From: Kitasatospora sp. NBC_01250
Lineage (GTDB): Bacteria > Actinomycetota > Actinomycetes > Streptomycetales > Streptomycetaceae
Assembly: GCF_036226465.1 (NCBI RefSeq)
Contig: NZ_CP108476.1
Location: 5,146,001-5,210,000 of the forward strand
Length of the DNA stretch: 64,000 nucleotides
Direction: 5' to 3'
Shown: positions 44,799-60,789 of the stretch, in pieces
Layout: every line of letters begins with the position of its first letter
Numbering within the stretch: the stretch's first letter is position 1
Program-made: the position numbers and the translations under genes
Notes under the pieces: model-generated
Database searches by the model: none
Seen by the model: the letters and a program-made list of their open reading frames with translations, nothing else
Told to the model about the DNA's origin: nothing

Positions 44799-45482
44799 GT
44801 GCAGACCCCGGAACGCGCCCAGCCCGCGCACCAGACATCCGTCCCCGATCTCGCCCGGATGCGCCGTCAGTACGCCGAGGAGGGCCTGGCCGAGCACGAG
44901 TTGGCCCCCGATCCGGTGGCCCAGTTCGTCCGCTGGTTCGAGCAGGCCGAGCAGGCCGGGCTGGTGGAGCCCAACGCCATGGTGGTCTCCACCGCCGACG
45001 CCGAGGGGCGCCCCAGCGCGCGCACCGTGCTGCTCAAGGGAGTGGACGAGCGCGGCTTCGTCTTCTTCACCAACTACGGCTCCCGCAAGGGCACCGAGCT
45101 GGCCGCCAACCCCAACGCCGCGCTGCTCTTCCCCTGGCACCAGATCGACCGTCAGGTGATCGTCACCGGCGGCGTCGAGCGCACCGGCCGGGACGAGACC
45201 GCCGCCTACTTCCGCACCCGCCCGCACGGCTCGCAACTGGGCGCCTGGGCCAGCGAGCAGTCCAGCCCGGTGGCCTCGCGCGAGGTGCTGGAGCAGCGCT
45301 TCGCCGAGCTCGCCTCGCGCTACCCCGAGGGCGAGGGGGTGCCGGTGCCGCCCTTCTGGGGCGGGTACCGGGTGATCCCGCGCTCGGTCGAGTTCTGGCA
45401 GGGCCGCCCCAACCGGCTGCACGACCGGCTGCGGTACACGGCGGGGCCGGACGGCTGGACGGTGGAGCGGCTCTGCCCGTAG
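44799..45482 (+). CDS. pdxH: pyridoxamine 5'-phosphate oxidase
   Basis: A 227-residue FMN oxidase. Signatures are [20 protein letters not shown], the FMN-phosphate region [20 protein letters not shown], and the C-terminal [14 protein letters not shown] with [11 protein letters not shown]. It oxidises pyridoxamine or pyridoxine phosphate to pyridoxal phosphate, the cofactor of SerC and the MetM-type enzyme in this window. The start is a GTG at 44799. The Fxs region begins 142 bases downstream on the same strand. Confidence 0.95.
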
Positions 45483-45624
45483 TAACGGGTCGGTCCACCG
45501 CTCGGCGCCGCCGGGCGCGACGGCGCGTAGAGGCTTGCCCAGCGCGGGAATTGCTCCATCCGCCCCCTTCGGAAACGGCGCGCGCCGGTCCACACTGAGT
45601 GGACGACGGACGGTGGGGGCGCGG

Positions 45625-48600
45625 GTGGAGGCGTACTTCTTTCTGAGCTACGCGCGGGCGGACGACAGTCCGCTGATCGCGGCCTTCTACCGCGACCTGG
45701 GCGCCCGGCTGCTCGCGCGGGACCCGGCCGCCGCCGGGCTGCCCCCCTTCCGGGACGTCGAGCAGATCCGGCTCGGCGCGGACTGGGAGCGGGCGCTGGC
45801 CGACGCGGTCGCGGGCTGTCGCGCGATGGTGGCCCTCTACTCGCCCGGCTACTTCGCCAGCTCCTACTGCGGCAAGGAGTGGACCGCCTTCCACTCCAGG
45901 GTGGTCGCGTTCCGCGCGGAGACCGGCTGGGACCCCCGAGCGCTGGTCCCGGTGCTCTGGCGGCCGGTGGCCGGGGCGCTGCCCGGGCCGGTGGCGGAAC
46001 TCCAGTACAGCGAACCGGCCATGGGCGAGCGCTACCCGCGGGTCGGGCTGCGCTCGCTGCTGGCGGAGGAGCCACCGGGGCCGGAGTACCACCAGGTGCT
46101 CGACGTGCTGACCGACCGGATCGCGCTCGCGGCCGGGCGGGCCCGGCTGCCCGGGCTGCCGGGACTGGACCTCGGCTCGTTCGTCGGGGCCTTCCCCGTC
46201 GCGGCGCCCGAGCCGCCGCCGGTCCACCTCAGCTACGCCCCGGCCGGCCGGCTGTGGGCCGAGTGGGCGGCCGCCGAGCTCGCCGCGGCGGGCCGGCCCG
46301 CCGCCCTGCACGGCCTCGGGACGGCCGGCGCCGACCAGGCGCTGCAGGAGGCGCTGGACGGCCGGGGCCGGGTGCTGGCGCTGCTGTCGCCCGACTATCC
46401 GCGCCATCCGGCGGCGGCCGGGCTGTGGAGCGCGCTGGCCGGGCACGCGTGGGCCCCCGGGCGCCCCACGCTGCTGTCCGTCCGGGTCGGTGAGTCCACC
46501 GACCCGCTGCCCGCGCCCTTCGGCGACCAGGTGCCGGGCGAGCAGCTCGCGGCCGACGCGACGGTGGCCGCAGCTCAACTGGCCGCCCTGGCGGGGGAGC
46601 CGGTGGCCGCGGGCGGTGCCCCCGTCACCGCCCGGCCCGCGCGCGGACCGCGCCCGCGCTTCCCCGGGGAGCGCCCCGCGGTCTTCGACGCACCGGTGCC
46701 CACCTCGAACTTCACCGGGCGGGACGAGGTGCTGGAGTCGCTGCGCGCCGGGTTCCTGGCGCCGGGCGGGCCGGCCGTCCAGGTGCTGCAGGGCATGGGC
46801 GGGGTCGGCAAGACCCAGACGGCGGCCGAGTACGCCCGGCGGTACGCGGCGGGGTACGACGTGGTCTGGTGGATCGCGGCCGAGCAGCCGGAGTTCATCG
46901 CCCCGCGGCTGGCCCAGCTGGCCCCGCGGCTCGGCCTGACCGCCACCGACGACAGCGCCGACACCGCGGCCCAGGTGCTGGAGGCGCTGCGCGCCGGGCG
47001 GCCGCACCCGCGCTGGCTGCTGATCCTGGACAACGCCGGCGACCCGGCCGAGCTGCGCGGCCGGCTCCCCGACCCGCCGCCCGGCGGCCACCTGCTGATC
47101 ACCTCGCGCGACGCGGCCTGGGCCCGCCGCGACCGGGTGCTCGAACTCGGCGTCCTGCGCCGGGCGGAGAGCCTGCAGCTGCTGGAGCGGCTGAACCCGG
47201 AACTGCCGGTGGCGGCCGCCGCGAAGCTGGCCGCCGCGCTGGGCGACCTGCCGCTGGCCATCGTCCCGGCGGCGGCCTGGCTGCGGGAGACGGGCATGCC
47301 GGTCGCCGAATACCTGGAGCTGCTCGCGGCCACGGCCACCGAACTGCTGGAGCGCAGCTGGCTGCCGGACGGGGACTACCCGCACTCGGCCGCCGCGAGC
47401 TGGCTGCTCTCGCTGGCCGAGCTGCGGCGCGTCAACCCGGCGGCCGCCGAGCTGCTGGAGCTCTGCGTCCACTTCGGGCCCGAGCCGATCCCCACCCGGC
47501 TGCTCTTCGCACCGCTGCCGGGCACGCCGGTCACCGGACCGGGCCTGGCGGGTGGCCCGGGCCCGGGTGCGGGCGGCGCGGCGGCAGGCAGCACGGCGGA
47601 CGGCTCGGCGGTGGACGCCTGGGCGGGGGAGGGCAGGGCGGTGGACGCCCGGCTGGCGGTCGGCGAGCTGATCAAGGCGATCCACCGCAGCGGGCTGGCC
47701 CGGGCGGGCGGCGGCACCGAGACGCTCACGGTGCACCGGCTGGTCCAGGGGGTGATCCGGGAGCAGGTCGGGCCGGAGCGCCGGGAGCAGCTGCGCGGCA
47801 CGGTGCAGCGGCTGCTCGCCGGAGCGGAGCGACCGGCGCCGGGTCTGGTCAACGGCTGGCCCGTCTACCAGGAGCTGCTGCCCCACCTGGGGCCGAGCGG
47901 TGCGGCACACAGCACCGACCCCGCGGTGCGGGACTGGCTGATCGACTCGGTGCGCTACCTCTACCAGCGCGGGCTCAGCCAGGAGGCGTGCGACCTGGCC
48001 GAGCGCATCCTCGCGTGCTGGTCGGAGCGGGACGCGGAGCCGGGCACGCAGAGCGCCGTCCAGGTGCCCCAGCTGCGCCGGCAGTACGCCAACACGCTGC
48101 GCGTCCTCGGGCGCTACCGCGAGTGCTACGCCATCGACAAGGAGGTGTTCGCCCAGCTGACCCGGGAGCTGGGCGACGGCCACCCGCACAGCCTGTCCGC
48201 CGCCAACAGCCTGGGCGCGGACCTGCGCTGCCTGGGCCGGTTCGCCGAGGCGTGCGAGCTGGACCGCACCACCCTGCGCCGGGCCGAGCGGGAGCTGGCA
48301 CCGGGCGATCCGCAGCGGCTGCTCTGCGCCAACAACCTCGCCGTCGCGCTCTACGCGGTGGGTGACCGGGTGGCCTCACTCGGCCTGCACGAGCGCACCT
48401 GGCGGCAGCGGGTCCGGTCGGCGCCGGCCGATCCGACCACCCTGTCCTCCGCGATCTGCGTCGCCCAGTCGCTGCGCGAGGCGGGCCGCCCGGCGCAGGC
48501 GCTCCGGGTGGCCGAGGAGGCCGCGCGCGACTGCCGGGACCTGCTCGGGGAGCGGCACCCGCGGACCCTGCTGGCCCGGGACGGCCTGGCCGCGACCTAC

Positions 48601-49251
48601 TACCGCCTTGGCCGGTTCGCCGAAGCCGAGAAGCTGGCCGAACCGGTCCACCGGAGTACCGAGGAGGTGCTCGGGGCGGGCAGCCACGAGGCGCTGGGCG
48701 CCGCCGCGCTGTTGGCCGCCGTCCGGCACGCGCTGGGCGAGCACGTCCGGGCGGTGGCCGTCGGCGAGCGGGCCTACCGCGAGGGCCGGGCCCGGTTCGG
48801 CGGCCGGCACCCGCTGACCGTGCTGCTGGCCGGGAACCTGGCGCCCCAACTGCGGGCCGCCGGGCGCACCGAGGAGGCGGCGGTGCTGGCCCGCGAGGCG
48901 GCCGAGCGGTTCGAGGCCGCCATGGGTCCGGACCACTGCGACCTGGGCGCGCTGCTGGTGAACCGGGCCACCGATCAGGCCGTCGGCGACCCGGCGCAGG
49001 CGGTCCGCACCGGCACCCGGGCGCTGGAACTGCTGACCGCGACGGTCGGCACGGCGCATCACCACGCGCTGGCGGCCGGCTCCAACCTGGCGCTCGACCT
49101 GGCCGCGGTCGGCGAGCGCGGGCCGGCCGAGGAATTGGCGGGGCGCTGTGCGGACCTGGCGCGCACGGCGCTGGGGGAGGGCCACGCGCTCACCCGCGCG
49201 GTGGTCGTCCGCAAGCGGCTCGATGTCCAGGTCGAGTTGTACCTGCTCTGA
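45625..49251 (+). CDS. TIR-TIR'-NB-ARC-TPR protein (FxsC-FxsT-like fusion)
   Basis: A 1208-residue protein in four parts. Residues 1 to about 130 are a TIR domain (YFFLSYARADD) that keeps the catalytic glutamate in CGKEW (Glu85), as in NAD-cleaving TIRs. Residues 200-330 are a second TIR-like domain (VHLSYAPAG) lacking that glutamate. An NB-ARC ATPase follows with P-loop GMGGVGKT (390-397), WLLILDNAGDP and a winged-helix part interrupted by a Gly/Ala-rich insert near 633-670. Residues from about 800 on are 42-residue TPR repeats of the kinesin-light-chain kind. The second TIR-NB-ARC-TPR part aligns with FxsT (54791), and the first TIR resembles FxsC (53371). The GTG at 45625 is chosen because the TIR fold starts immediately after it. 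Probably a STAND-type sensor-effector. Confidence 0.85.
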   Translation: MEAYFFLSYARADDSPLIAAFYRDLGARLLARDPAAAGLPPFRDVEQIRLGADWERALADAVAGCRAMVALYSPGYFASSYCGKEWTAFHSRVVAFRAETGWDPRALVPVLWRPVAGALPGPVAELQYSEPAMGERYPRVGLRSLLAEEPPGPEYHQVLDVLTDRIALAAGRARLPGLPGLDLGSFVGAFPVAAPEPPPVHLSYAPAGRLWAEWAAAELAAAGRPAALHGLGTAGADQALQEALDGRGRVLALLSPDYPRHPAAAGLWSALAGHAWAPGRPTLLSVRVGESTDPLPAPFGDQVPGEQLAADATVAAAQLAALAGEPVAAGGAPVTARPARGPRPRFPGERPAVFDAPVPTSNFTGRDEVLESLRAGFLAPGGPAVQVLQGMGGVGKTQTAAEYARRYAAGYDVVWWIAAEQPEFIAPRLAQLAPRLGLTATDDSADTAAQVLEALRAGRPHPRWLLILDNAGDPAELRGRLPDPPPGGHLLITSRDAAWARRDRVLELGVLRRAESLQLLERLNPELPVAAAAKLAAALGDLPLAIVPAAAWLRETGMPVAEYLELLAATATELLERSWLPDGDYPHSAAASWLLSLAELRRVNPAAAELLELCVHFGPEPIPTRLLFAPLPGTPVTGPGLAGGPGPGAGGAAAGSTADGSAVDAWAGEGRAVDARLAVGELIKAIHRSGLARAGGGTETLTVHRLVQGVIREQVGPERREQLRGTVQRLLAGAERPAPGLVNGWPVYQELLPHLGPSGAAHSTDPAVRDWLIDSVRYLYQRGLSQEACDLAERILACWSERDAEPGTQSAVQVPQLRRQYANTLRVLGRYRECYAIDKEVFAQLTRELGDGHPHSLSAANSLGADLRCLGRFAEACELDRTTLRRAERELAPGDPQRLLCANNLAVALYAVGDRVASLGLHERTWRQRVRSAPADPTTLSSAICVAQSLREAGRPAQALRVAEEAARDCRDLLGERHPRTLLARDGLAATYYRLGRFAEAEKLAEPVHRSTEEVLGAGSHEALGAAALLAAVRHALGEHVRAVAVGERAYREGRARFGGRHPLTVLLAGNLAPQLRAAGRTEEAAVLAREAAERFEAAMGPDHCDLGALLVNRATDQAVGDPAQAVRTGTRALELLTATVGTAHHHALAAGSNLALDLAAVGERGPAEELAGRCADLARTALGEGHALTRAVVVRKRLDVQVELYLL

Positions 49252-49606: not shown

Positions 49607-49792
49607 ATGCACACCATGCTGGAAGTCGCGGGAACCACGTCCGGCAAGCCACTCGCGTCGCAGGGCGGGCGCCCCTCGCTCGCGGAGCTGTCGACCCAGG
49701 ACACCGATGTGCTGCTCGCCTCGCTCTACCGGTCGCTGCCGGTCCTCGACGGCGAGCCGGAGGTCGAGAAGGGCTTCAACTCCTCGATCTGA
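49607..49792 (+). CDS. fxsA: FxSxx-COOH RiPP precursor peptide
   Basis: A 61-residue peptide. The leader includes GRPSLAELSTQDTDVLLASL, an acidic helix-like segment typical of this precursor family. The chain ends EKGFNSSI: Phe57, any residue, Ser59, two more residues and the free C-terminus, which is exactly the FxSxx-COOH pattern. In this family the adjacent radical SAM enzyme joins the Phe ring to the beta-carbon of the Ser two positions on, forming a three-residue cyclophane. The ATG at 49607 has GGAAGGA upstream; a second ATG lies three codons later. fxsB follows after 94 bases. Confidence 0.93.
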   Translation: MHTMLEVAGTTSGKPLASQGGRPSLAELSTQDTDVLLASLYRSLPVLDGEPEVEKGFNSSI

Positions 49793-49886
49793 AGGGCGCG
49801 CGGAGATGACGCCCGGTTGACAGCTCCGCCCTGCCGGTACTGCAGTTGTTCTGGCGGAGTGTCATCTCTCAACAGCAGGAAGTCAC

Positions 49887-52385
49887 ATGACGCACCAGCT
49901 GGTGCCATTCTCACAGTTCGTACTGAAGGTTCACAGTCGCTGCGACCTGGCCTGTGACCACTGCTACGTCTATGAGCACGCCGACACCAGCTGGCGCGGC
50001 AGACCACGGGCGATCACGGGGGTGGTCCTCGACCGGGTGGCCGAACGGATCGCGGAGCACGCGACCGAGCACCGGCTGCCGGCCGTTCACGTGGTGTTGC
50101 ACGGGGGTGAACCCCTGCTGGCCGGCCCGCGAGTGCTGCGCCGGGCCGCCGAGCGGCTCCGTGCCGCGCTGCCCGCCGGCTGTGCGCTGGACCTGCGCAT
50201 CCACACCAACGGGGTGCGGCTGGACCGCGCGTTCTGCGAACTCTTCGACGAGCTGGACATCAAGGTCGGGATCTCGCTGGACGGCGACGCGGCGGCCAAC
50301 GACCGCCACCGCCGGTTCGCCGACGGCCGCAGCAGCCACGCCCAGGTGCTCGCCGCCGTCGAGCTGCTGCGCCGCCCGGAGTTCCGCCATCTGTACGCGG
50401 GCCTGCTCTGCACGATCGACGTGGAGAACGACCCGGTCGCGGTCTACGAGGCGCTGCGCGCGCTGGAGCCCCCGCGCATCGACTTCCTGCTCCCGCACGC
50501 GACCTGGGACCAGCCGCCGAAGCGCCCTGCCGAGCTGGGAGAACACCCCTACGCGAAATGGCTGCTGACGATCCATCGGCGCTGGGAGCAGCAGGGCCGG
50601 CCGGTCCCGGTGCGCACCTTCGACTCGGTGTACCGCACGCTCCGCGGCCGGGCCAGCCTGACCGAGGCACTCGGACTCGATCCGGCCGATCTGGTGGTGA
50701 TCGAGACGGACGGCACGTTCGAGCAGGCCGACAGTCTGAAAACGGCCTATGACGGTGCACCGGCGACCGGTTTCGACGTTTTCGCGAACAGCCTGGACGA
50801 AGTGGCCCGGCACCCGGGGATGATGGCCCGGCAGTCGGGACTGGCCGGGCTGACCGCGACCTGCCGGGCCTGCCCGGTGGTCCGCAGTTGCGGCGGCGGT
50901 CTCTACGCGCACCGCTGGCGCACCGGCGCCGGCTTCGACAACCCTTCCGTCTTCTGCGGAGACCTCATGCGCCTGATCACCACCATCCGGGACCGGATCG
51001 CCCCGGCCCGACCCGCGGCCTGCGCGGTCCCTGACCCTGTCAGCCCGGACCCCGGCGCCCCGGCGGCCGGCCCGGGCCCGGAGCAGCTCGCTCAACTGGC
51101 CCGCGGCCACGGGGACGCGGCCACCGTCGCGGCGCTGGCCGCCGGGCAGCTGGACCTGACCCGGCGGCTGCTGGCGGCGGTCGGCCCGGCGGTGGGGGAG
51201 TCCTGGCAGGCGCTCGCCGAGCTGGACGCAACGGCGCCCGCGGCGGTGGACGCGGTGCTCGCCCACCCGTACGTCCGCGGCTGGGCGGTGGGCCGGCTGC
51301 GCGCGGAGGCGGGCGAGCCGCAGGCCGAGCCGGACACGCTGGCCGAGATCGCAGCGGCCGCACTGATCCGGGCACGACTGGCGGCCGAGCTGCCGGTCCC
51401 GGTCCGCGGCGGTGCGATCCAGCTGCCCACCCTGGGCCGGGTGCTGGTCGGCGGCTCGGGGCAGGCCGTGGTGCGCAGCGGGGCCGACGGCTTCACCGTG
51501 CGCACCGCGGGCGGGGTGGAGCGGGTGATCGGCTTCGACCAGCCCGCCGACCGGAGCTGGCTGCCGGTGCGACGGCTCGGCCTGCTCGGCGGCTGGTCGG
51601 TGGCGCTGGAGGACACCGACCCGCAGCGGGACCGCCACCGGTGGCCGGCCGAAGCGCGCCTGACCGAAGCCGAGCTGGGCGACTGGACCGGTGCCCTGCG
51701 CGAGGCCTGGGAACTGCTGCTGCGCGAACTGCCGCAGTACGCCGCCGGGATCGGCGCCGGGCTGACCACCCTTACCCCCCTGCGCCCGGGCCCGCCAGGC
51801 CGGGAGCTCGGCGGCGCCGACCGGCAGGCCTTCGGCGCCGTCGCGATCGCCCGCCCGCGCACCGCGCCGGCCCTGGCCCGGCTGCTCGTGCACGGGTTCC
51901 AGCTGGTCAAGCTGGGTGGGGTGCTGGACTTCCACGACCTGTACGACCGGGCGGACCGGCGCGGCTACCGGGCTCCCTGGCAGGAGGAGCCGCGCCCGCT
52001 GGCCGACCTGTTCCAGGAGGCCTACGCCGAGCTGGCCGTGACCGAGTTCTGGGGCAGCCGGGCGCGCGCCTACCACGGGGTGGGCGGCGAGGCTGCCGAG
52101 CACGCGCGCGCGCAGTTCGGGCGCCGACGCGGGGAGACCGAGCAGGCGCTCGACGCCCTGCTCGGCTCGGGCTCGCTCACCGCGCTCGGCGAGCGGTTCG
52201 CGGTGGGCCTGCGGGAGTCGCTGGAGCCCTGCCTGGCGATGCCGCTGGGGGCGCCGGCCGTGCCGGCGGACCGGTCCGTAGGTGACGCAGCCGCCGCTCC
52301 GGCCGACCGCGCTGTGCCGGCCGACCACCACGCGCCCGCCGACAGCCCTGCCCCCGCCGATCACTCCGCTCCCGCCGGACGCTGA
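49887..52385 (+). CDS. fxsB: radical SAM/SPASM cyclophane-forming maturase FxsB
   Basis: An 832-residue enzyme. The radical SAM cluster motif is HSRCDLACDHCYVYEH (CxxxCxxC at about C19, C23 and C26), followed by VVLHGGEPLLAGP as the SAM-binding GGEP motif. SPASM cysteines appear around residues 326-361 (TCRACPVVRSCGGGLY). The C-terminal 400 residues match the metallohydrolase-like extension of FxsB, but HEXXH is replaced by HGFQL (His669-Leu673), so that domain is inactive. The last 40 residues are an Ala/Pro/Asp-rich tail. It modifies FxsA. Confidence 0.95.
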   Translation: MTHQLVPFSQFVLKVHSRCDLACDHCYVYEHADTSWRGRPRAITGVVLDRVAERIAEHATEHRLPAVHVVLHGGEPLLAGPRVLRRAAERLRAALPAGCALDLRIHTNGVRLDRAFCELFDELDIKVGISLDGDAAANDRHRRFADGRSSHAQVLAAVELLRRPEFRHLYAGLLCTIDVENDPVAVYEALRALEPPRIDFLLPHATWDQPPKRPAELGEHPYAKWLLTIHRRWEQQGRPVPVRTFDSVYRTLRGRASLTEALGLDPADLVVIETDGTFEQADSLKTAYDGAPATGFDVFANSLDEVARHPGMMARQSGLAGLTATCRACPVVRSCGGGLYAHRWRTGAGFDNPSVFCGDLMRLITTIRDRIAPARPAACAVPDPVSPDPGAPAAGPGPEQLAQLARGHGDAATVAALAAGQLDLTRRLLAAVGPAVGESWQALAELDATAPAAVDAVLAHPYVRGWAVGRLRAEAGEPQAEPDTLAEIAAAALIRARLAAELPVPVRGGAIQLPTLGRVLVGGSGQAVVRSGADGFTVRTAGGVERVIGFDQPADRSWLPVRRLGLLGGWSVALEDTDPQRDRHRWPAEARLTEAELGDWTGALREAWELLLRELPQYAAGIGAGLTTLTPLRPGPPGRELGGADRQAFGAVAIARPRTAPALARLLVHGFQLVKLGGVLDFHDLYDRADRRGYRAPWQEEPRPLADLFQEAYAELAVTEFWGSRARAYHGVGGEAAEHARAQFGRRRGETEQALDALLGSGSLTALGERFAVGLRESLEPCLAMPLGAPAVPADRSVGDAAAAPADRAVPADHHAPADSPAPADHSAPAGR

Positions 52386-52396
52386 GGAGGCCCGCC

Positions 52397-53233
52397 GTGC
52401 TGACCGTCCCCGAGCTCACCGACCAGCTGCGCCGGCTCGGCCTGTCGCCGCGCTGCGGGCCGGTGCTGGTGCACGCCGCGCTGCGCTCGCTCGGCCCGGT
52501 GGAGGGCGGCTCGGCCGGCGTGGTCACCGCTTTGAGCACCGCGCTGCGCGGCGCGCTCGGCCCGGAGGGCACGCTGCTGGCCTTCACCGCGACCCCGGAG
52601 AACTCCGAGACCTCCCGGCTCGACGCGGCCGTCACCGCCGGGCTGAGCCGGGCGGAGCTGCTGGCCTACCGCCGCGCGATGGCGCCCTTCGACCCGGCGA
52701 CCACCCCGAGTTCGCCGACCATGGGGCGGCTCTCCGAGGAGCTGCGCACCACGCCCGGCGCGCTGCGCAGCACGCATCCGCAGACCTCGTTCGCTGCGCT
52801 CGGACCACGGGCCGCCGAGCTGACCGCCGACCACCGGCTCGACTGCCACCTCGGCGAGTACTCGCCGCTCGGGGCGCTCTACCGGGCGGGCGGCTCGGTG
52901 CTGATGCTGGGCGCCTCGCCGGAGCGCTGCACCGCCCTGCAGCTGGCCGAGTACCGGGTGCCCGACGCTCCGGTGAAGCGCTACGGCTGCATGGTCCGCG
53001 ACGCCGCCGGGCGCCCGGCCTGGGTGCGGTTCGACGGGCTCGACCTGGACGACCAGTACTTCCCGCAGATGCTGGCCGCGATCCGGCCGCGGCTGACCGG
53101 GGCGCGGGAGGGCCGGATCGGCGGCGCCGAGTGCCTGCTGATGCCCGTGGTGCAGGCGGTCGACGCGGCGCGGTGGTGGCACCTGCGGCAGCGGGCGACG
53201 GTTGTGGCTGATCCGATTCGGGCAAACCGCTGA
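52397..53233 (+). CDS. AAC(3)-family N-acetyltransferase of the Fxs cluster
   Basis: A 278-residue protein of the aminoglycoside 3-N-acetyltransferase fold. Signatures are PVLVHAALRSLGPVEGG, STHPQTSFAALGPRAAEL and GEYSPLGALYRAGGSVLMLG. The usual TxLHxAE motif reads TALQLAEY, with Gln182 in place of the His, so activity on classical aminoglycosides is doubtful. It follows fxsB by 11 bases with GAGGAGG before a GTG start. Its place between fxsB and fxsC suggests acetylation of the modified peptide or of a partner compound rather than resistance. Confidence 0.87.
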   Translation: MLTVPELTDQLRRLGLSPRCGPVLVHAALRSLGPVEGGSAGVVTALSTALRGALGPEGTLLAFTATPENSETSRLDAAVTAGLSRAELLAYRRAMAPFDPATTPSSPTMGRLSEELRTTPGALRSTHPQTSFAALGPRAAELTADHRLDCHLGEYSPLGALYRAGGSVLMLGASPERCTALQLAEYRVPDAPVKRYGCMVRDAAGRPAWVRFDGLDLDDQYFPQMLAAIRPRLTGAREGRIGGAECLLMPVVQAVDAARWWHLRQRATVVADPIRANR

Positions 53234-53370: not shown

Positions 53371-54801
53371 GTGAACGACGCTGCGGGCAAGCAGAAGGCC
53401 TCGGCGAAGCCGCACTTCTTCCTCAGTTACGCCCACATGCCGCCGGTCGGTACGCGAAATCCCAATTCGCGGGTCAGCCAGTTCTACGAGGACCTCTGCG
53501 AGGCCGTGCTGCAGTTGACGCCGCTGCCCACCGCGGATCCGGTCGGCTTCATGGACGAGACCATGCACCAGGGGGACAACTGGGCGGTGAAGATCTCCGA
53601 GGCGCTGGCGACCTGCCGGGTCTTCGTGCCGCTCTACCACCCGAGACTGTTCCGCAGCACCCCGTGCGGTCAGGAGTGGTACACCTTCGCCCAGCGCGCG
53701 GCCAACGCCCCCGGCGGCACCGCACAGAACAGCGCGATCGTGCCGGTGCTCTGGGTGGGCATGCGCGAGGGCGCGCTGCCGCAGGTGGCCAGCGCCGTGC
53801 AGTTCAACCACTCCAGCTTTCCGCGTGCCTATGCCGAGGACGGCCTGTACGCGCTGATGGCCCAGCGCCATCACCAGGGTCTGTACGAGAAGGTGGTCTA
53901 CAAACTGGCCCGGCGCATTGTCGAAGTGGCACTGGAGACGGTGGTCCCGGTGGTCGAGCCGGTCGACTTCACCACCAATCCCTCGGCCTTTCCCGGCCGT
54001 TCGCCCGCCGATGAACTCACCATCGCCGTCCTGGCGTTCAAGGACAGCGAGGTGCCGGCGCACCGCGACCGGGGCTACTACGGGGCGCGCCGCACCGACT
54101 GGCAGCCGTACGTGCGCGGCGGGGACGCCGCGCTGGCCGAGAAGGCCGCACAGTTGGCCCGGCAGTGCGACCTCAACCCGACCATCCACGAGTTCGAGCT
54201 GGCGGCCCCCCGGCTGATGGAGCTGGAGCGGCCGCAGGGCCCCGGTGTCCTGCTGGTCGACCGCTGGGTCCTGCAGGACCCCCAGCGCTGCGCGCTGGTG
54301 CGCGAGTTCGCCCGCCGCAACCCCGCCTGGGTGGCGGTGGTGGAGCCGTGGAACCGCGACGATCCGCAGTGCGCGGCCGAGACCGGGTCGCTGGCCGCGC
54401 TGAGCGAGCAGGTGCTGCGCCAGCGCGGCGGCAGCGTGCGCCCGTCCTTCCGCCCGGTGGCGGGCGACGGCGCCGATCCCGAAGGGGTGCCCACCGCCAG
54501 CGACTTCGGCCTGGCCTTCCAGCACGCCGCGATCCGCGCACAGAAGGCCTACAAGGAACGCGCGCTGCCCAGGCCTCCGGTGACCGGCGAGTCCCGGCCG
54601 CGGCTGCGGGACGCCTTCGGTGACGCGGGCCGGCCGTCGCAGAACCGCTACGCCGACCCCCATGCCGACCCGGGTCCGCCCTTGGAGAACGACGAGCACG
54701 ACCGCGAGTTTGACGAGCAGGACGAGCACGACGGCGAGTTCGACCCCGATCTCGACGGTGAGTTCGACGAGGATGACGAAGGAGGAGATCATGACGTCTG
54801 A
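53371..54801 (+). CDS. fxsC: TIR-like protein FxsC
   Basis: A 476-residue protein. The N-terminal 200 residues are a TIR-like domain: HFFLSYAHM, then VFVPLYHPRLF and STPCGQEWYTF with Cys99 and Glu102 at the catalytic position of NAD-cleaving TIRs. The middle part (LTIAVLAFKDSEVPAHRD, ERPQGPGVLLVDRWVLQD) is the FxsC-specific domain. The C-terminal 40 residues are almost only Asp, Glu and His. The GTG at 53371 follows GGGGAGG. It overlaps fxsT by 11 bases, so the two are translationally coupled. Confidence 0.9.
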   Translation: MNDAAGKQKASAKPHFFLSYAHMPPVGTRNPNSRVSQFYEDLCEAVLQLTPLPTADPVGFMDETMHQGDNWAVKISEALATCRVFVPLYHPRLFRSTPCGQEWYTFAQRAANAPGGTAQNSAIVPVLWVGMREGALPQVASAVQFNHSSFPRAYAEDGLYALMAQRHHQGLYEKVVYKLARRIVEVALETVVPVVEPVDFTTNPSAFPGRSPADELTIAVLAFKDSEVPAHRDRGYYGARRTDWQPYVRGGDAALAEKAAQLARQCDLNPTIHEFELAAPRLMELERPQGPGVLLVDRWVLQDPQRCALVREFARRNPAWVAVVEPWNRDDPQCAAETGSLAALSEQVLRQRGGSVRPSFRPVAGDGADPEGVPTASDFGLAFQHAAIRAQKAYKERALPRPPVTGESRPRLRDAFGDAGRPSQNRYADPHADPGPPLENDEHDREFDEQDEHDGEFDPDLDGEFDEDDEGGDHDV

Positions 54802-57800
54802 CCAGACTCGCAACCTCCGGGTGGGTGGGCGTAGTTCAGCGGCCAAGCTGACCGCGTCCGGACCCGCGCCGGCCAGGACCGGCGAGGAGGACCGCCAGGG
54901 CCGGATCATCACCTTCTACTCCTACAAGGGCGGCACCGGGCGCACCATGGCGCTGGCCAACACCGCCTGGATCCTGGCCGCCAACGGCTTCCGGGTGCTC
55001 ACCGTTGACTGGGACCTGGAGGCCCCCGGGCTGGCCAAGTTCTTCCACCCCTTCCTGGACGCGGCCGAACTCGCCGACTCGCCGGGCGTGATGACGCTGA
55101 TCAACGACTACCGCGAGGAGGCGCTGCGGGAGACCGAGCTGCACGCCGACGCGCTGCTCGAACCCGAGCGCTACCAGCAGGAGCTGCTGGAGATCGGCCA
55201 CCACCCGGGCTGGCACCTGGACTTCGCCAAGGTGGCCGGCCACGCGGTGCCGCTCTCCTGGGGCGGCTTCCCGGCCGGCGGCAGCATCGACTTCCTGGCC
55301 GCGGGCCGCCAGGACCGGGACTACTCCGGCACCCTGGGCAGCCTGGACTGGGACCTGTTCTACGAGCGGTTCGACGGCGGCCAGTTCTTCGACGCGCTCC
55401 GCGCCGACATGCGCAAGCGCTACGACTACGTGCTGATCGACAGCCGCACCGGCCTGTCCGACACCGCCGAGATCTGCACCGTGCAGATGCCCGACGACCT
55501 GGTGGTCTGCTTCACGCTGAGCGACCAGAGCATCGACGGCGCCTCCCGGATCGCCCAGCACATCGCGGACCGCTACCGCGACCGCGGCATCCGGATCCTG
55601 CCGGTGCCGATGCGGATCGACGACTTCGAGAAGGACAAGGCGGACGCCGGGCGGGCGCTGGCCCGGATCCGCTTCGACGGGCTGCCCTCAGGGCTGACCA
55701 ACGAGCAACTGGTGCACTACTGGGGCTCGGTGGAGATCCCCTACCGGCCGTTCTACGCCTACGAGGAGATCCTGGCCACCTTCGGCGACCAGGTCGGCAC
55801 CCCGACCAGCATGCTCTCGGCCTGCGAGCGGCTGACCGACGTGATCACCGCGGGCCGGGTCGCCTCGCTGCCGCCGATGGACGAGGAGGTGCGGCTGCGC
55901 TACATCGAGGCGTTCACCCGCCGCCGCCCCACCGTGCCGGCCGACATCTACCTCAGCTACGTGCCCGAGGACCGGATGTGGGCCGACTGGATCGAGTTCG
56001 TGCTCGGCGCGGCCGGTTTCCGGGTGCTGCCCAGGGACGTGGGGGCGGGCACCGACGCGCGGGCCGAGACCGAGCGCTCGGTGGACGCCGCCTACCGGAC
56101 CGTCGCGGTGCTCTCGCCCGCCTACCTGCGCTCCCCGCACGCCCGCGCGCTGTGGGAGTCGGTGGTCGGCTCCGACCCCTCCGGCACCCGCCGCCAGCTG
56201 ATCCCGGTGCGGGTCGGCTCCACGCCGCTGGCCGCCCCGTTCAGCAGCCGCAACCCGGTGGACCTGGTCAACCTCAAGGAGCCGCAGGCGCTGCTGGCCC
56301 TGGTCAAGGCGCTGGGCCGGGAGGAGGTGCCTGCGGTGGACACCGCGAGCGGGCCGCGGTTCCCCGGCACCCAGCCGGAGATCTGGAACGTCCCGCCCCG
56401 CAACACCTACTTCACCGGCCGGTCCGAGCTGCTGGAGCGGCTGCGCAACCAGCTCGGCGGCGGCGCGACCGCGGTGCTGCCGGTGCCGCAGACCCTCTAC
56501 GGGCTCGGCGGCGTCGGCAAGACCCAGGTGGCGCTGGAGTACGCGCACCGGTTCATGGCCGACTACGACCTGGTCTGGTGGGTCTCGGCCGAGCAGGAGG
56601 ACGAGATCCAGGGCCAGATGGCCGAGCTGGCCCGCAAGATGGGCCGGGCCAGCAACGAGCCGGTGGCGCTGGCCACCGAGATCGCGCTGGAGTCGCTGCG
56701 CCGCGGCGAGCGGTCCAAGCGCTGGCTGCTGATCTTCGACAACGCGGACGACCCGGGCGAGATCCGGCGCTACTTCCCCGGTGGCAACGGCCACATCCTG
56801 GTCACCTCGCGCAACCAGGCCTGGGCCACCCACGCCGAGGCGCTGACCATGGACGTCTTCACCCGCGGCGAGAGCATCGACCACCTGACCCGGCGCACCG
56901 GCGGTGCACTCAGCCGGGTGGACGCGGACGCGGTGGCCGAGGCGGTGGGGGACCTGCCGCTGGCCGTCGAGGTGGCGGGCGCCTGGCTGAAGGCCACCAG
57001 CACCCCGGTCGCCGAGTACATCGCGGCCCTGCAGACCGAGGCCTCCCGGGTGCTGGAGCTCGGCCGTCCGGTCGACTACCCGATGACGGTCGGCGCCACC
57101 TGGCGGGTCTCCATCGCCCGGCTGCGCGAGCAGTCCCCGGCCGCCGCCCGGATGCTCCAGCTGTGCGCCTACTTCGCGCCCGAGCCGATCTCGATGAGCC
57201 TGTTCTACAGCGACCAGATGATCCGCGCGCTGGTGCCCTACGATCCGGGGCTGAGCGACAAGTTCCTGCTCGGCCGGGTGATCCAGGCGATCGGCCGGTA
57301 CGCGCTGGCCAAGGTGGACGCGGGGACCAACAGCATCCAGGTGCACCGGCTGGTCCAGGAGGTGATCCGCTCCGAGATGACGCCCGAGGAGCAGGTCGAC
57401 ACCGTGCACGAGGTGCACCGGATCCTGATCGGCGCCCGCCCGGTCACCGGTGACACCGACGACCCGGCCAACTGGCCGGTCTTCGAGGAGATCTGGCCGC
57501 ACCTGTCGCCCTCCCGGGCGCACGACTGCGACGAGTCGGACACCCGGCAGCTGATGATCGACCGGGTCCGCTACCTGTGGAAGCGCGGCGAGTTCGGCCA
57601 GGCCCGCCGGATGGGCCACCTGCTGGACGAGGCGTGGACCGCCAAGCTCGGCGAGGACGACCGGCAGACCCTGCTGCTGCGCTTCCAGCTCGCCAACGTG
57701 ATGCGCTCGCAGGGCCAGTACGCGCTGGCGGTGGAGCTGGACAAGGACACCCTGAAGCGGCAGCAGCGGGTGCTGGGCGCGCACCACCCGTACACCCTGA

Positions 57801-58861
57801 TGACGGCCGGCTCGCTCGCCGCCGACCTGCGCGCGGTCGGCGACTTCGACGAGGCGCTGGGGCTGGACCGGGAGGCGCTCGAACGGTTCCGCGAGCAGTT
57901 CGGCGAGGACAACCCGCGCACCCTGTCCTGTGCCAATAACCTGGCCGTCGACTACCGGTTGGCCGGCAACAGCAAGGACGCCCAGGAGCTGGACCAGGAC
58001 ACCCTGGACCGCCGGGCCCTGGTGCTCGGCCCCAAGCACCCCTACACCCTGTCCACCAAGTCCAACCTGGCCCGCGACCTGCGCGAGTCCGGCGACTACG
58101 AGGGCTCGGTGACGCTCCACCAGGAGGTCGCCGAGGCCTTCGCCGAGGTGCTCGACATCGACGTGCCGGAGATCCTGCGCAACGCCAAGTCGCTGGCCGT
58201 CTCGCTGCGCAAGGTGGGCCGGCAGGCCGAGGCGCGCCGGCTCACCAAGGAGACCTACGAGCGCTACCTGGAGCGCTACGGCGAGAACGCGCCGGACACG
58301 CTGGCCTGCGCGCTCAACCTGGCCGCCGACTACAGCGCGGGCGGGGACAAGGACGCGGCCCGCGATCTGGCCCGTCAGGTCTACGTCGGCCACCAGCAGC
58401 TCTACGGGCCCGAGCACCCGTTCACCCTCGTCTGCGCCAACAACCTGGTGATCTACCTGCGTGGCAGCGGCGGTCTGGCGGAGGCGCTGGAACTGGGCGA
58501 GGCCACGGTGGACACGCTGACCCGGACGGTGGGTGCCGACCACCCCTACACCCTCAACGCGATGATCAACCTGGCCAACGCCTACGGCGACCAGGGCCGG
58601 CTGGTGGAGGCCGAGGAGCTGGAGCAGTCCGCCTACCGAGGCCTGTGCGAGCGCTACGGTCCCCGTCACCCTGACGCGGTGGCCTGCCAGGCCAACCTGG
58701 CCGTCACGCTGCGCTCGCAGGGCAAGGTCAACCAGGCCACCGAGCTGCGTGCCCGCGCGGTGGCCGAGCTGATCCGCCAGCTCGGCGAGGAGCACCCCAA
58801 CACGGTCTCGGCCCGGGGCTGGAAGCGGATCAACCGGGACCTGGAGCCGCAGCCGATCTGA
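54791..58861 (+). CDS. fxsT: FxsT: MinD-like ATPase, TIR-like, NB-ARC and TPR protein
   Basis: A 1356-residue protein. Residues 38-370 are a MinD/ParA-like domain with YKGGTGRT (45-52); the signature Lys46 is kept but the usual P-loop Lys is Arg51. Residues 384-510 are a TIR-like domain (IYLSYVPEDRMW) in which the catalytic-glutamate position holds Leu, so it is probably not an enzyme. An NB-ARC ATPase follows with GLGGVGKT (571-578) and WLLIFDNADDP. From about residue 950 to the end are TPR repeats of 42 residues. The ATG at 54791 has GGAGGAG upstream. It is the TPR partner that marks Fxs loci, a likely STAND-type sensor. Confidence 0.93.
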   Translation: MTSDQTRNLRVGGRSSAAKLTASGPAPARTGEEDRQGRIITFYSYKGGTGRTMALANTAWILAANGFRVLTVDWDLEAPGLAKFFHPFLDAAELADSPGVMTLINDYREEALRETELHADALLEPERYQQELLEIGHHPGWHLDFAKVAGHAVPLSWGGFPAGGSIDFLAAGRQDRDYSGTLGSLDWDLFYERFDGGQFFDALRADMRKRYDYVLIDSRTGLSDTAEICTVQMPDDLVVCFTLSDQSIDGASRIAQHIADRYRDRGIRILPVPMRIDDFEKDKADAGRALARIRFDGLPSGLTNEQLVHYWGSVEIPYRPFYAYEEILATFGDQVGTPTSMLSACERLTDVITAGRVASLPPMDEEVRLRYIEAFTRRRPTVPADIYLSYVPEDRMWADWIEFVLGAAGFRVLPRDVGAGTDARAETERSVDAAYRTVAVLSPAYLRSPHARALWESVVGSDPSGTRRQLIPVRVGSTPLAAPFSSRNPVDLVNLKEPQALLALVKALGREEVPAVDTASGPRFPGTQPEIWNVPPRNTYFTGRSELLERLRNQLGGGATAVLPVPQTLYGLGGVGKTQVALEYAHRFMADYDLVWWVSAEQEDEIQGQMAELARKMGRASNEPVALATEIALESLRRGERSKRWLLIFDNADDPGEIRRYFPGGNGHILVTSRNQAWATHAEALTMDVFTRGESIDHLTRRTGGALSRVDADAVAEAVGDLPLAVEVAGAWLKATSTPVAEYIAALQTEASRVLELGRPVDYPMTVGATWRVSIARLREQSPAAARMLQLCAYFAPEPISMSLFYSDQMIRALVPYDPGLSDKFLLGRVIQAIGRYALAKVDAGTNSIQVHRLVQEVIRSEMTPEEQVDTVHEVHRILIGARPVTGDTDDPANWPVFEEIWPHLSPSRAHDCDESDTRQLMIDRVRYLWKRGEFGQARRMGHLLDEAWTAKLGEDDRQTLLLRFQLANVMRSQGQYALAVELDKDTLKRQQRVLGAHHPYTLMTAGSLAADLRAVGDFDEALGLDREALERFREQFGEDNPRTLSCANNLAVDYRLAGNSKDAQELDQDTLDRRALVLGPKHPYTLSTKSNLARDLRESGDYEGSVTLHQEVAEAFAEVLDIDVPEILRNAKSLAVSLRKVGRQAEARRLTKETYERYLERYGENAPDTLACALNLAADYSAGGDKDAARDLARQVYVGHQQLYGPEHPFTLVCANNLVIYLRGSGGLAEALELGEATVDTLTRTVGADHPYTLNAMINLANAYGDQGRLVEAEELEQSAYRGLCERYGPRHPDAVACQANLAVTLRSQGKVNQATELRARAVAELIRQLGEEHPNTVSARGWKRINRDLEPQPI

Positions 58862-58876
58862 TGCCGTGGCGTGCCG

Positions 58877-59752
58877 TCAGTCGACGCCCCCCGCCGCCCA
58901 CTTCAGGGCGGCGGTGAGCACCCGCAGCGAGCCGAAGTGAGCAGCGCCCGGCTCCAGGAAGAGCGTGGCGTCGGGGATGTGCGCGGCCAGCCAGCGGGAG
59001 TGGTCCACCGGCGACCACATGTCGTCGGCGCCGTGCCACAGCCAGGTGGCGGCCGTGACGTCCTGCGCCTTGAACCCCCAGTCGGTGGTGAAGGCGAGCA
59101 CGTCGTCGATCCAGCCGTCGGCGTTCTGCCGGAATGCCTCGCGGTAGTTGCTCAGCAGCATCCGGCGGATGCCGGCGTCGGAGACCACCGCGCGGTCCAC
59201 GGCGGTCAGCTCGCGGCGCAGTCCGGCGAGCAGGGTGGCCGGATCGTCGCGCATCCGCCGGGCCCGCTGCTCCATGGTGGCGGCGATCCGCTGGTGGTCG
59301 CGCTCGGCGGCGCGGTAGTCGCGGATGTTGGCGGCGGTCATCCCGGCGTACCAGTCCAGGTCGTCGGCGTTCCAGGGGGCCAGGCCCACCAGCACGGCCA
59401 CCCGGTGGACCCGGCCGGGCAGCAGCGCGCCACAGGCCAGCGCGTGCGGTCCGCCGCCGGAGCGGCCCACCACGGCGAAACGTTCCAGCCCGAACTCGTC
59501 GGCGATCGCCTGCACGTCGGCGGCGGCCGCGGCCACCTGCCGGCCGCGCAGGCGGTCCGAGCCGCCGTAGCCGGGGCGGTCGAAGGAGATCAGCCGGACG
59601 CCGAGGTTGTACAGCACGCTGCTGCGCGGGGTCGGGCCGAGCCGGCTGCCGGGTGTGCCGTGCATCAGGAAGACCGGGCGGCCTTCGGGGTCGCCGAAGG
59701 TCTGCACGGCGAGCCTGCGGCAGTCGGCGGTCTTCACCAGTCGGGGCTGCAC
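58877..59752 (-). CDS. alpha/beta hydrolase
   Basis: A 291-residue hydrolase. The oxyanion-hole motif is FLMHGTPGSRLGP, the nucleophile elbow GRSGGGPHALA, the acid WLWHGADDMWSP, and the catalytic His follows at GAAHFGSLRV. The GTG at 59752 has GGAGG eight bases upstream. It converges with fxsT, 15 bases after its stop, so it may not belong to the Fxs transcript; its substrate is unknown. Confidence 0.88.
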   Translation of the reverse strand: MQPRLVKTADCRRLAVQTFGDPEGRPVFLMHGTPGSRLGPTPRSSVLYNLGVRLISFDRPGYGGSDRLRGRQVAAAAADVQAIADEFGLERFAVVGRSGGGPHALACGALLPGRVHRVAVLVGLAPWNADDLDWYAGMTAANIRDYRAAERDHQRIAATMEQRARRMRDDPATLLAGLRRELTAVDRAVVSDAGIRRMLLSNYREAFRQNADGWIDDVLAFTTDWGFKAQDVTAATWLWHGADDMWSPVDHSRWLAAHIPDATLFLEPGAAHFGSLRVLTAALKWAAGGVD

Positions 59753-59862
59753 GCCGGGGACCTCCAAAGTCGGGGAACACGGGTAGGGGATCGGGACCGG
59801 CACAGGCCGCGGACGGCCTGTTGCGGATGCCGGGGGAGCGGGCCACCGCCCGCGCCAGGCCG

Positions 59863-60789
59863 CTAGTGGCCGGGCCCGCGGACCTCGCGGCGGGCCTGCC
59901 AGGTGGTGTGCTCGCGCGACACGGCGTCCTCGGCGTCCCGGGCGAGTCGGGCCCAGACCTCCTCGGAGTCGGCGGCGGACAGGTCGAGCTGGGTCAACTG
60001 GGCGCGGACCAGCTCCAGTTCGTCGGCCGCCAGCCGGTAGGCGGCGGCCAGCGGCCGGTACTGGCGCAGCTGGGCCCAGGCGGTCACCGAGGCGGCCACC
60101 GCCGAGACGGTGCCCAACTGGTCGAAGGAGACGGCGCCCAGCGCCCGCAGCACCGCCAGCACCAGCCCCAGGACCGGCAGCGCGACACCGAGCAGTTCGG
60201 TGGTCCGCCCGGCCCGGTCGCAGTAGCCGGCCTTGGCCTGGTACCAGTCGTGCTGCACCGCCACCCGCTCGCGCAGGTAGACCTCCCGCCGCACGGTCAG
60301 CGGCTGCGCGCGCAGCTCCCGCATCGCGGCCGTCACCCCCGCGCGCCGCTCGGCGTCGCCCGGCAGCACCGGGCTGTCTCTGAAGCCGCGCAGGATGCCG
60401 CGCAGCTGGAGGTCGTAGAGCCCCTCCGCATCCGGCAGGGTGGCCGCGAGCGGCTGGTAGGCGTCGGCCCGCACCGCGAACTTCCAGGCCAGCGTCTTGA
60501 CCGACTCGGCCGCCGCCCGGCCCTCGTACCACAGGCCCTGCGGGTTCTGCCGGCTGACCAGCGCGGCCAGCCCGCCGGCCCCGAGGTAGGCCGCGGCGGC
60601 GACCCAGGCGTACGGTCGCCCGGCCAGCGAGCCGACCGCCGCCCCGGCGGTGAGCAGCAGCAGCTGCCAGCGGGCCAGCGTGATCGAGTGGCGCTGGCCG
60701 CGCCGCGAGGCCAGGTCGGCGACCCGGAACAGCTCGGGCAGTAGCTCGGCCTCGTGGACCGGCTCCGTCGATTGTGCGCCGGCTGCCAT
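59863..60789 (-). CDS. DUF4231/SLATT-type membrane protein, copy 2
   Basis: A 308-residue protein with the same plan as the gene at 35860: two helix pairs (LLLLTAGAAVGSLAGRPYAW, AAYLGAGGLAALV; then LLGVALPVLGLVLAVLRALG, VSAVAASVTAW) around a soluble part with AAAESVKTLAWKFAVRA. Shared C-terminal signature: EDAVSREHTTWQARR against EDAVAREHSSWRSRR. SLATT proteins are predicted membrane effectors of nucleotide-dependent immunity. It lies next to the Fxs genes but on the other strand, upstream of the hydrolase. Confidence 0.78.
   Translation of the reverse strand: MAAGAQSTEPVHEAELLPELFRVADLASRRGQRHSITLARWQLLLLTAGAAVGSLAGRPYAWVAAAAYLGAGGLAALVSRQNPQGLWYEGRAAAESVKTLAWKFAVRADAYQPLAATLPDAEGLYDLQLRGILRGFRDSPVLPGDAERRAGVTAAMRELRAQPLTVRREVYLRERVAVQHDWYQAKAGYCDRAGRTTELLGVALPVLGLVLAVLRALGAVSFDQLGTVSAVAASVTAWAQLRQYRPLAAAYRLAADELELVRAQLTQLDLSAADSEEVWARLARDAEDAVSREHTTWQARREVRGPGH

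Follow-up and report, generated by a model that had tools for sequence, protein, structure and literature searches.

The FxsA-FxsB pair and its expected crosslink

We analyzed a 64,000-nucleotide window of the Kitasatospora sp. NBC_01250 genome (contig NZ_CP108476.1, positions 5,146,001 to 5,210,000 of the forward strand; coordinates below count from the first letter of the window). It carries a standard actinobacterial FxsA-FxsB peptide-crosslinking system tied to immune-receptor-like proteins, in a host genome of 9.0 Mb assembled as a single contig. The precursor gene fxsA (49607..49792, + strand) encodes 61 amino acids, and its translation ends in G56-F57-N58-S59-S60-I61-COOH, with the tail from F57 to I61 encoded at 49775-49789; a small precursor of this kind, next to fxsB and with an F-x-S-x-x-COOH terminus, is what is expected of an Fxs system. 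The gene fxsB (49887..52385, + strand) encodes an 832-amino-acid maturase composed of a radical SAM/SPASM half (residues 8 to 368) and a C-terminal extension (residues about 401 to 789). FxsB scores 581.6 bits (cutoff, 370) against TIGR04269, which NCBIfam names "FxsB family cyclophane-forming radical SAM/SPASM peptide maturase," and its best-matching named relatives are mainly Kitasatospora. The translation and the family score bear out an earlier note on this DNA, which had proposed a precursor ending in FNSSI with its own maturase. Of 80 named relatives, 78 have an open reading frame with an FxSxx end directly 5′ of fxsB (L078 has none, and the candidate in L081 is unconvincing), so the pairing of the two genes is not due to chance. 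A hairpin between fxsA and fxsB was rejected as a candidate element, its strength not being above that of shuffled sequences (z = 0.12).

Tails were compared in 218 rows, which are the 238 unique loci minus 18 without an assigned tail, L203 (where the FxsB frame continues into the next gene), and L081 (for its unconvincing FxsA); for L051, a new tail was assigned manually. Selection by the C-terminal pattern F-x-S-x-x makes Phe and Ser invariant by construction, and their zero entropy is uninformative. Under that pattern a tail candidate was missing in 8 of 221 loci, and under a wider pattern in 6 of 221. FNSSI is the commonest of 32 different tails, occurring in 81 of the 218 unique loci with an assigned tail, so the exposed tail residues are not specific to this strain, contrary to the earlier note. 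In L203, the fxsB frame extends into the AAC(3)-like gene and has no recognizable HExxH extension, possibly through a frame error or a natural truncation.

All 81 rows retain the CxxxCxxC cysteines of FxsB together with C326, C329, and C335, and the radical SAM half (residues 10 to 371) matches ChlB (PDB 9gm3) with 254.8 bits. We take the MscB entry IPR026335 to be equivalent to TIGR04269. Among triceptide 3-CyFE enzymes, MscB in particular resembles the present system in being an FxsB-type enzyme with an F-x-S motif and an expected ring from Phe to the Ser β-carbon; a review (PMC11002830) describes MscB as linking Phe C4 to the β-carbon of Ser, at residues i and i+2. The ring is reported for MscB and predicted here. 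Given the published ring and the "cyclophane-forming" name of the family, the Phe57-Ser59 crosslink put forward in the earlier note is the right expectation, and a three-residue cyclophane between F57 and S59 is predicted in FxsA by homology.

The HExxH half of FxsB and the V-A-A block

The extension of FxsB (residues 401 to 789) matches PDB entry 22nu (267.6 bits) and the alpha-ketoglutarate HExxH peptide hydroxylase model TIGR04267 (117.6 bits; cutoff, 40). The HExxH active site is not intact in this strain: it reads H669-G-F-Q-L673 (51891..51905, + strand), and residue 715 is Glu (52029..52031, + strand). In 111 unique HExxH-intact relatives, S642, H669, E670, H673, and H715 are invariant (the HExxH residues by definition of the group), and His715 is likely the third metal ligand. 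With the changes S642G, E670G, H673L, and H715E, the HExxH half of this FxsB is, judged by its residues, catalytically dead. A genome-wide search for mod_HExxH domains at an E value of 0.001 matched solely FxsB's own extension. Of the 66 extension columns with conservation of at least 97% among the intact relatives, the dead extension retains 57, including all 27 before residue 642, and it has diverged faster than the radical SAM half. Identity to L179, in which the site is also dead (REFQR), is 89.0% in the radical SAM half and 67.2% in the extension; for the live relatives L006 and L007, the corresponding figures are 87.3% and 75.6%.

Both halves of FxsB match fused radical SAM/alpha-ketoglutarate HExxH enzymes (ChlB, 9gm3; 22nu). 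This strain differs from them, and from PflC and PosC (PMC12636437), in that Glu670, His673, and the otherwise kept His715 are all gone. According to the same source, a zincin-like fused domain later proved to be an alpha-ketoglutarate oxygenase with Asp and His as the residues hydroxylated, and PosC additionally cleaves at an Ala, with cleavage abolished when the Ala was changed to Gln or Ser. An extension without HExxH is also found in the inactivated form FxsBH (NF040587); this strain differs from it in scoring below the cutoff (218.2 bits; cutoff, 225) and in that its loss is separate on the tree from the 67-member loss clade described below. A live HExxH domain is fused to FxsB in 138 of the 218 unique loci; the HExxH site has been lost in 80.

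Loss of the HExxH site was accompanied by loss of a short block in the precursor. Where HExxH is intact (138 rows), V-A-A directly precedes the ring, and its positions have entropies of 0.59, 0.53, and 0.97 bits; the three variable tail residues have 1.29, 1.10, and 0.97 bits, the position five before Phe has 1.44 bits, and the remaining leader has 2.2 to 3.3 bits, values inflated by indels since the rows were set ungapped from the C-terminal end. In the 80 HExxH-lost rows, the same three positions before the ring have 3.01, 2.52, and 1.80 bits. The five residues before the ring are E-V-E-K-G in this strain (49760..49774, + strand) and V-x-V-A-A in HExxH-intact relatives, so that E-K-G stands where V-A-A is found; its nearest intact relatives have VAVAAF (L173), IAVAAF (L006), and VPVAAF (L167).

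A 218-row tree built only from the radical SAM half shows 8 changes of HExxH state and 8 loss clusters of 1, 1, 1, 1, 2, 2, 5, and 67 rows, one of which consists of this strain and L179. The full V-A-A motif is absent in all 8 clusters. By a four-position motif score (positions −5, −3, −2, and −1) chosen after the data were seen, 74 of 80 lost rows and 8 of 138 intact rows scored below 3, and 80 of 80 versus 23 of 138 scored below 4. Of six supported independent pairs, 5.4 linked a score below 3 with loss of HExxH and 0.0 ran the other way (median P = 0.0625 by sign test; range, 0.031 to 0.125), while at control positions the pairs with and against loss were 0.6 and 0.6 (ring middle), 1.7 and 0.4 (+3), and 0.9 and 0.1 (+4). 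Among 37 later-fetched rows, which are not independent, a stricter motif definition fixed earlier failed in all 9 lost rows and in 14 of the 28 intact ones (P = 0.007). The tree tests for joint loss are suggestive, not conclusive. Because the full block is missing in all eight lineages without HExxH, the data suggest that the HExxH half acts on the V-A-A block. Positions −3 and −2 are the better candidate sites, since −1 also accepts Arg, Lys, and Gly in intact loci.

Several observations weigh against such a link. One clade accounts for 67 of the 80 losses among the 218 rows, and part of it retains I-S or V-S. The usable pairs number six, so the tree test is not strong, and Ala at −1 taken by itself failed in the later-fetched loci (7 of 9 lost versus 14 of 28 intact; P = 0.25). 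L179, L059, L283, and L302 lost HExxH and kept Ala at −1, and L311 and L315 lost it and kept T-A. Within the enzyme, L050 has lost HExxH yet keeps the third His, and L279 and L280 keep HEFQH with Tyr, not His, at the third position, through altered chemistry or an alignment slip. Joint loss might accordingly be lineage drift with no functional link, which the dominance of one clade, the small number of pairs, and the nonindependence of rows in the two-by-two counts would all favor. We nevertheless regard drift as a rather unlikely account, because the full motif is missing in every loss cluster and every lost row scores below 4, because the definition fixed earlier separated the later-fetched rows, and because the control positions show less association.

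An idea tried and dropped was that a hydroxyl is hard-wired into the precursor when the hydroxylase is lost, with Thr or Ser taking the place of Ala at −1. The raw count (Thr in 52 and Ser in 4 of 72 lost) came mostly from one clade, Ser or Thr at −1 went with loss in 1.6 of the six pairs and against it in 1.0, and the P value for Ala at −1 was the 0.25 given above. Among systems with an unfused FxsB, which are too few to count, the tails of L232, L242, and L245 lie beside a separate HExxH gene and keep [VT]-[AS]-G-F; the tail of L249 does not keep that pattern, and L234, with no HExxH gene in the 4 kb covered, has KGN before Phe. About 8 to 10 kb into L026, L028, L031, L033, L035, and L064, immediately upstream, is a second, split system with a radical SAM gene, a separate HExxH gene (HEFLH), and its own FxsT-like neighbor.

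Partner genes and distribution of the locus

Downstream genes were counted in the 172 unique loci whose sequence extends 9.5 kb or more 3′ of fxsB. The gene following fxsB encodes an AAC(3)-like acetyltransferase (52397..53233, + strand; PF02522, 216.9 bits), which sits between fxsB and fxsC in many relatives and was present in 112 of the 172 loci, with its His kept in 150 of 150. It belongs to the PF02522 superfamily and falls below the cutoff of the aminoglycoside 3-N-acetyltransferase equivalog NF033082 (164.1 bits; cutoff, 270). In L038, L040, L045, and L046, the AAC(3)-like gene lies beyond the hydrolase gene described below, on the opposite strand, and not between fxsB and fxsC.

Both partners of a known Fxs system, FxsC and FxsT, are encoded next. 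The gene fxsC (53371..54801, + strand) encodes a TIR domain and a C-terminal domain and exceeds the cutoffs of NF040588 (181.4 bits; cutoff, 130) and TIGR04276 (136.8 bits; cutoff, 55). It was found in 159 of 172 loci, and the TIR Glu, which we take to be the catalytic residue, is kept in 196 of 196. The first domain was modeled as a TIR fold (predicted local distance difference test [pLDDT], 82.4) that aligns with the SPARTA TIR domain 8i87 (Z = 12.8; root mean square deviation, 2.9; 136 residues aligned), so that the predicted structure combines a TIR fold with a candidate catalytic Glu, and FxsC probably cleaves nicotinamide adenine dinucleotide (NAD). For the model of the C-terminal domain (pLDDT, 89.0), the best match was a receiver domain (Z = 9.0; root mean square deviation, 3.1; 125 residues aligned), with flavodoxin-like and TIR folds close behind, so no assignment was adopted. 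The gene fxsT (54791..58861, + strand; start codon inferred) scores 1,070.4 bits against NF040586 (cutoff, 300) and has MinD-like, TIR-like, NB-ARC, and TPR domains in Pfam. FxsT was present in 157 of 172 loci, with the Walker A Lys kept in 195 of 195. Presumed catalytic residues are among these kept positions of FxsC, FxsT, and the AAC(3)-like protein.

Convergent to fxsT is a gene for an alpha/beta hydrolase (58877..59866, − strand; start codon not settled; PF00561, 65.9 bits) that retains Ser, Asp, and His. The frame at 58871-59866 on the + strand, called by the gene caller on the wrong strand, was first taken as the conserved gene and was discarded in favor of the gene opposite. Genes were clustered across 81 loci (the 80 named loci plus this strain) with genus labels assigned by hand, and most flanking genes were confined to one or two labels; the hydrolase and an adjoining SLATT protein recurred widely. 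The hydrolase cluster covered 51 of the 81 loci and 14 genus labels, and in a direct search 57 of 80 loci had a hydrolase no farther than 1.5 kb from fxsT. In the larger set, 138 of 172 loci carried the gene, and in all 138 it lay on the strand opposite to fxsT; the end of fxsT was no more than 300 bp away in 118 of 137. All 158 proteins compared retain Ser and His, and 157 retain Asp. The weaker associate, a two-transmembrane SLATT protein (59863..60789, − strand; SLATT_3 and SLATT_1 in Pfam), occurred in 36 of 81 loci (9 genus labels) and 58 of 172.

We also compared 50 hand-picked genomes, 25 with FxsB at an E value of 1e-174 or better and 25 with nothing better than 1e-7. Hydrolase matches at the ortholog level (5e-98 or better) occurred in 24 of 25 FxsB-positive and 0 of 25 FxsB-negative genomes, three of the latter having weaker matches (6e-61 to 1e-84). 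FxsC was likewise found in 24 of 25 and 0 of 25, and the positive genome G270 was without both FxsC and hydrolase; because the genomes are related, these counts are not independent. The convergent hydrolase is a probable extra component of the Fxs locus.

Upstream, between pdxH (44823-45479) and fxsA, lies a gene for a second FxsT-like protein, in which an FxsC-type TIR domain is fused to NB-ARC-TPR (45613..49251, + strand; start codon inferred). It scores 749 bits against NF040586 and 152.9 bits against FxsC_Nterm, both over the cutoff, and its TIR domain keeps the C-x-x-E motif. The whole fusion was seen in this strain and L015, with FxsT2-like pieces only in L157, L173, L179, L193, and L195, an undercount because 140 of 221 loci covered only about 3 kb upstream. 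Fusion of the two protein types suggests that FxsC and FxsT act together. All six long genes of the locus are open.

FxsB exceeded its cutoff in 283 of 394 genomes of the strain's family and, among the matches listed, was found in all 69 other genomes of the genus, at an E value of 5.5e-140 or better. Together with a citrate-synthase neighbor in 34 of 35 Kitasatospora-group loci, this makes the locus look core in the genus. A phage search for FxsB or FxsA returned distant or chance-level matches only, and plasmid FxsB-family genes covered at most 44% of this FxsB among the matches listed. PADLOC gave partial matches only: FxsB to pVip (32.8 bits), part of FxsT to PDC-M28B (77.3 bits), and the second FxsT-like protein to SAVED_TIR (19.9 bits).

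Proposed role and alternatives

In gene content, gene order, the FxSxx tail, and the family scores over the cutoff for FxsB, FxsC, and FxsT, the locus resembles the known FxsA/FxsB/FxsC/FxsT system (TIGR04269, NF040588/TIGR04276, and NF040586) and the standalone FxSxx systems of PMC7159879. According to that paper, those systems contain an AP-ATPase and an inactive MinD-like domain, the zincin-like domain is taken as a peptidase that excises the C-terminal peptide, and the peptide is suggested to be a toxin or an amplifying signal. This strain departs from the known systems in its dead HExxH half, intact in the majority of loci as counted above, and in its extra FxsC-type TIR/FxsT fusion upstream. 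The convergent hydrolase is a further difference; in the passages of PMC7159879 consulted, alpha/beta hydrolases are paired with caspase-like domains in other systems and are not tied to FxSxx systems.

We consider it moderately probable that fxsA and fxsB are an Fxs-type pair whose product carries the F57-S59 cyclophane, has lost the second, HExxH-dependent oxidation in this strain, and serves as a leader-attached intracellular ligand or tag for FxsC and FxsT. By homology, the radical SAM half would join Phe57 and Ser59 into the three-residue ring. In relatives, the live HExxH half probably oxidizes FxsA in a second reaction, with the V-A-A block as the likeliest site to judge from the joint loss; by analogy with PosC, it may hydroxylate or cleave at this block beside the ring. 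As neither the live enzyme half nor the block remains here, the product is probably the cyclophane only, with the leader retained. The crosslinked tail would then most likely be an intracellular ligand or status tag read by FxsC, a TIR protein that is probably NAD cleaving, and by the NB-ARC/TPR protein FxsT; an internal ligand is favored over a secreted antibiotic because the tail is stable and the FxsC and FxsT partners are constant. The AAC(3)-like enzyme and the hydrolase might add a further group to the peptide or remove one. Set against a ligand role is the proposal, in PMC7159879, of a toxin or amplifying signal instead.

The earlier note had held that the product may stay in the cell or on its leader. 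This is plausible and gains a reason here, because the strain's dead HExxH half is the part of FxsB that might have processed the precursor. Its observation that no protease or exporter gene is adjacent holds for the exporter, none being found in a Pfam scan of the 15 neighboring gene products at 39879-62615, and is incomplete for the protease, given the convergent hydrolase, which keeps Ser, Asp, and His and could be a protease. That reading of the locus was right in part; it was silent on the HExxH half, the AAC(3)-like gene, FxsC, FxsT, the second FxsT-like protein, and the hydrolase.

A more specific scheme, which we offer tentatively and think less likely to be right than wrong, has FxsB work in two steps. 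Ring formation would be followed by HExxH-dependent oxidation of V-A-A, possibly with a PosC-like break of the Ala backbone that frees a small 2-oxoacyl-capped cyclophane from its leader as a signal for FxsC and FxsT. Eight sampled lineages, that of this strain among them, would have lost the enzyme half together with its target site, leaving this strain with a leader-attached ligand; the hydrolase, overlooked until now, would act on the same peptide.

The locus could instead be a conflict or antiphage module in which the modified peptide, acting as toxin or alarm, amplifies a suicide response of the TIR/NB-ARC type, after the suggestion made for FxSxx systems in PMC7159879. The TIR, NB-ARC/TPR, and SLATT partners fit this idea, as does the absence of FxsB from some genomes of the family. 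Presence in all 69 listed genomes of the genus, with a near-constant citrate-synthase neighbor, is steadier than usual for phage defense and weakens it, as do the partial PADLOC matches; we view this alternative as possible but doubtful. That the product is a secreted cyclophane antibiotic, with exporter and leader protease encoded elsewhere, is improbable: some radical SAM cyclophanes are secreted antibiotics (PMC11002830), but the scan of neighboring products found no exporter, the tail is almost constant across many genera, and the constant partners are TIR and NB-ARC proteins. Decay of the locus to a nonworking state, to which the lost active site and faster drift of the extension (as in the comparison with L179) might point, is highly improbable given the kept radical SAM and auxiliary cysteines, the retention of most conserved extension columns, and the open reading frames of all six long genes.

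Fxs loci are common in the strain's family, and searches of the open-access literature, judged by listings and abstracts, turned up no functional study of one; subscription papers lay mostly outside this scope, so the second site may already be known. The FxsA-FxsB-FxsC-FxsT system itself is established, and what is new here is the live HExxH domain fused to FxsB in many relatives, its destroyed active site in this strain, and the absence of the full V-A-A block wherever that site was lost. The unusual features of this strain are a maturase whose second enzyme half is dead and a precursor without the motif that live versions appear to use. Hydrolase linkage contributes a further component that can be deleted. 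Repeated joint loss of an active site and a three-residue block in the presumed substrate suggests where the second FxsB reaction may take place, and the natural pairs formed by this strain and its HExxH-intact relatives make that site testable.

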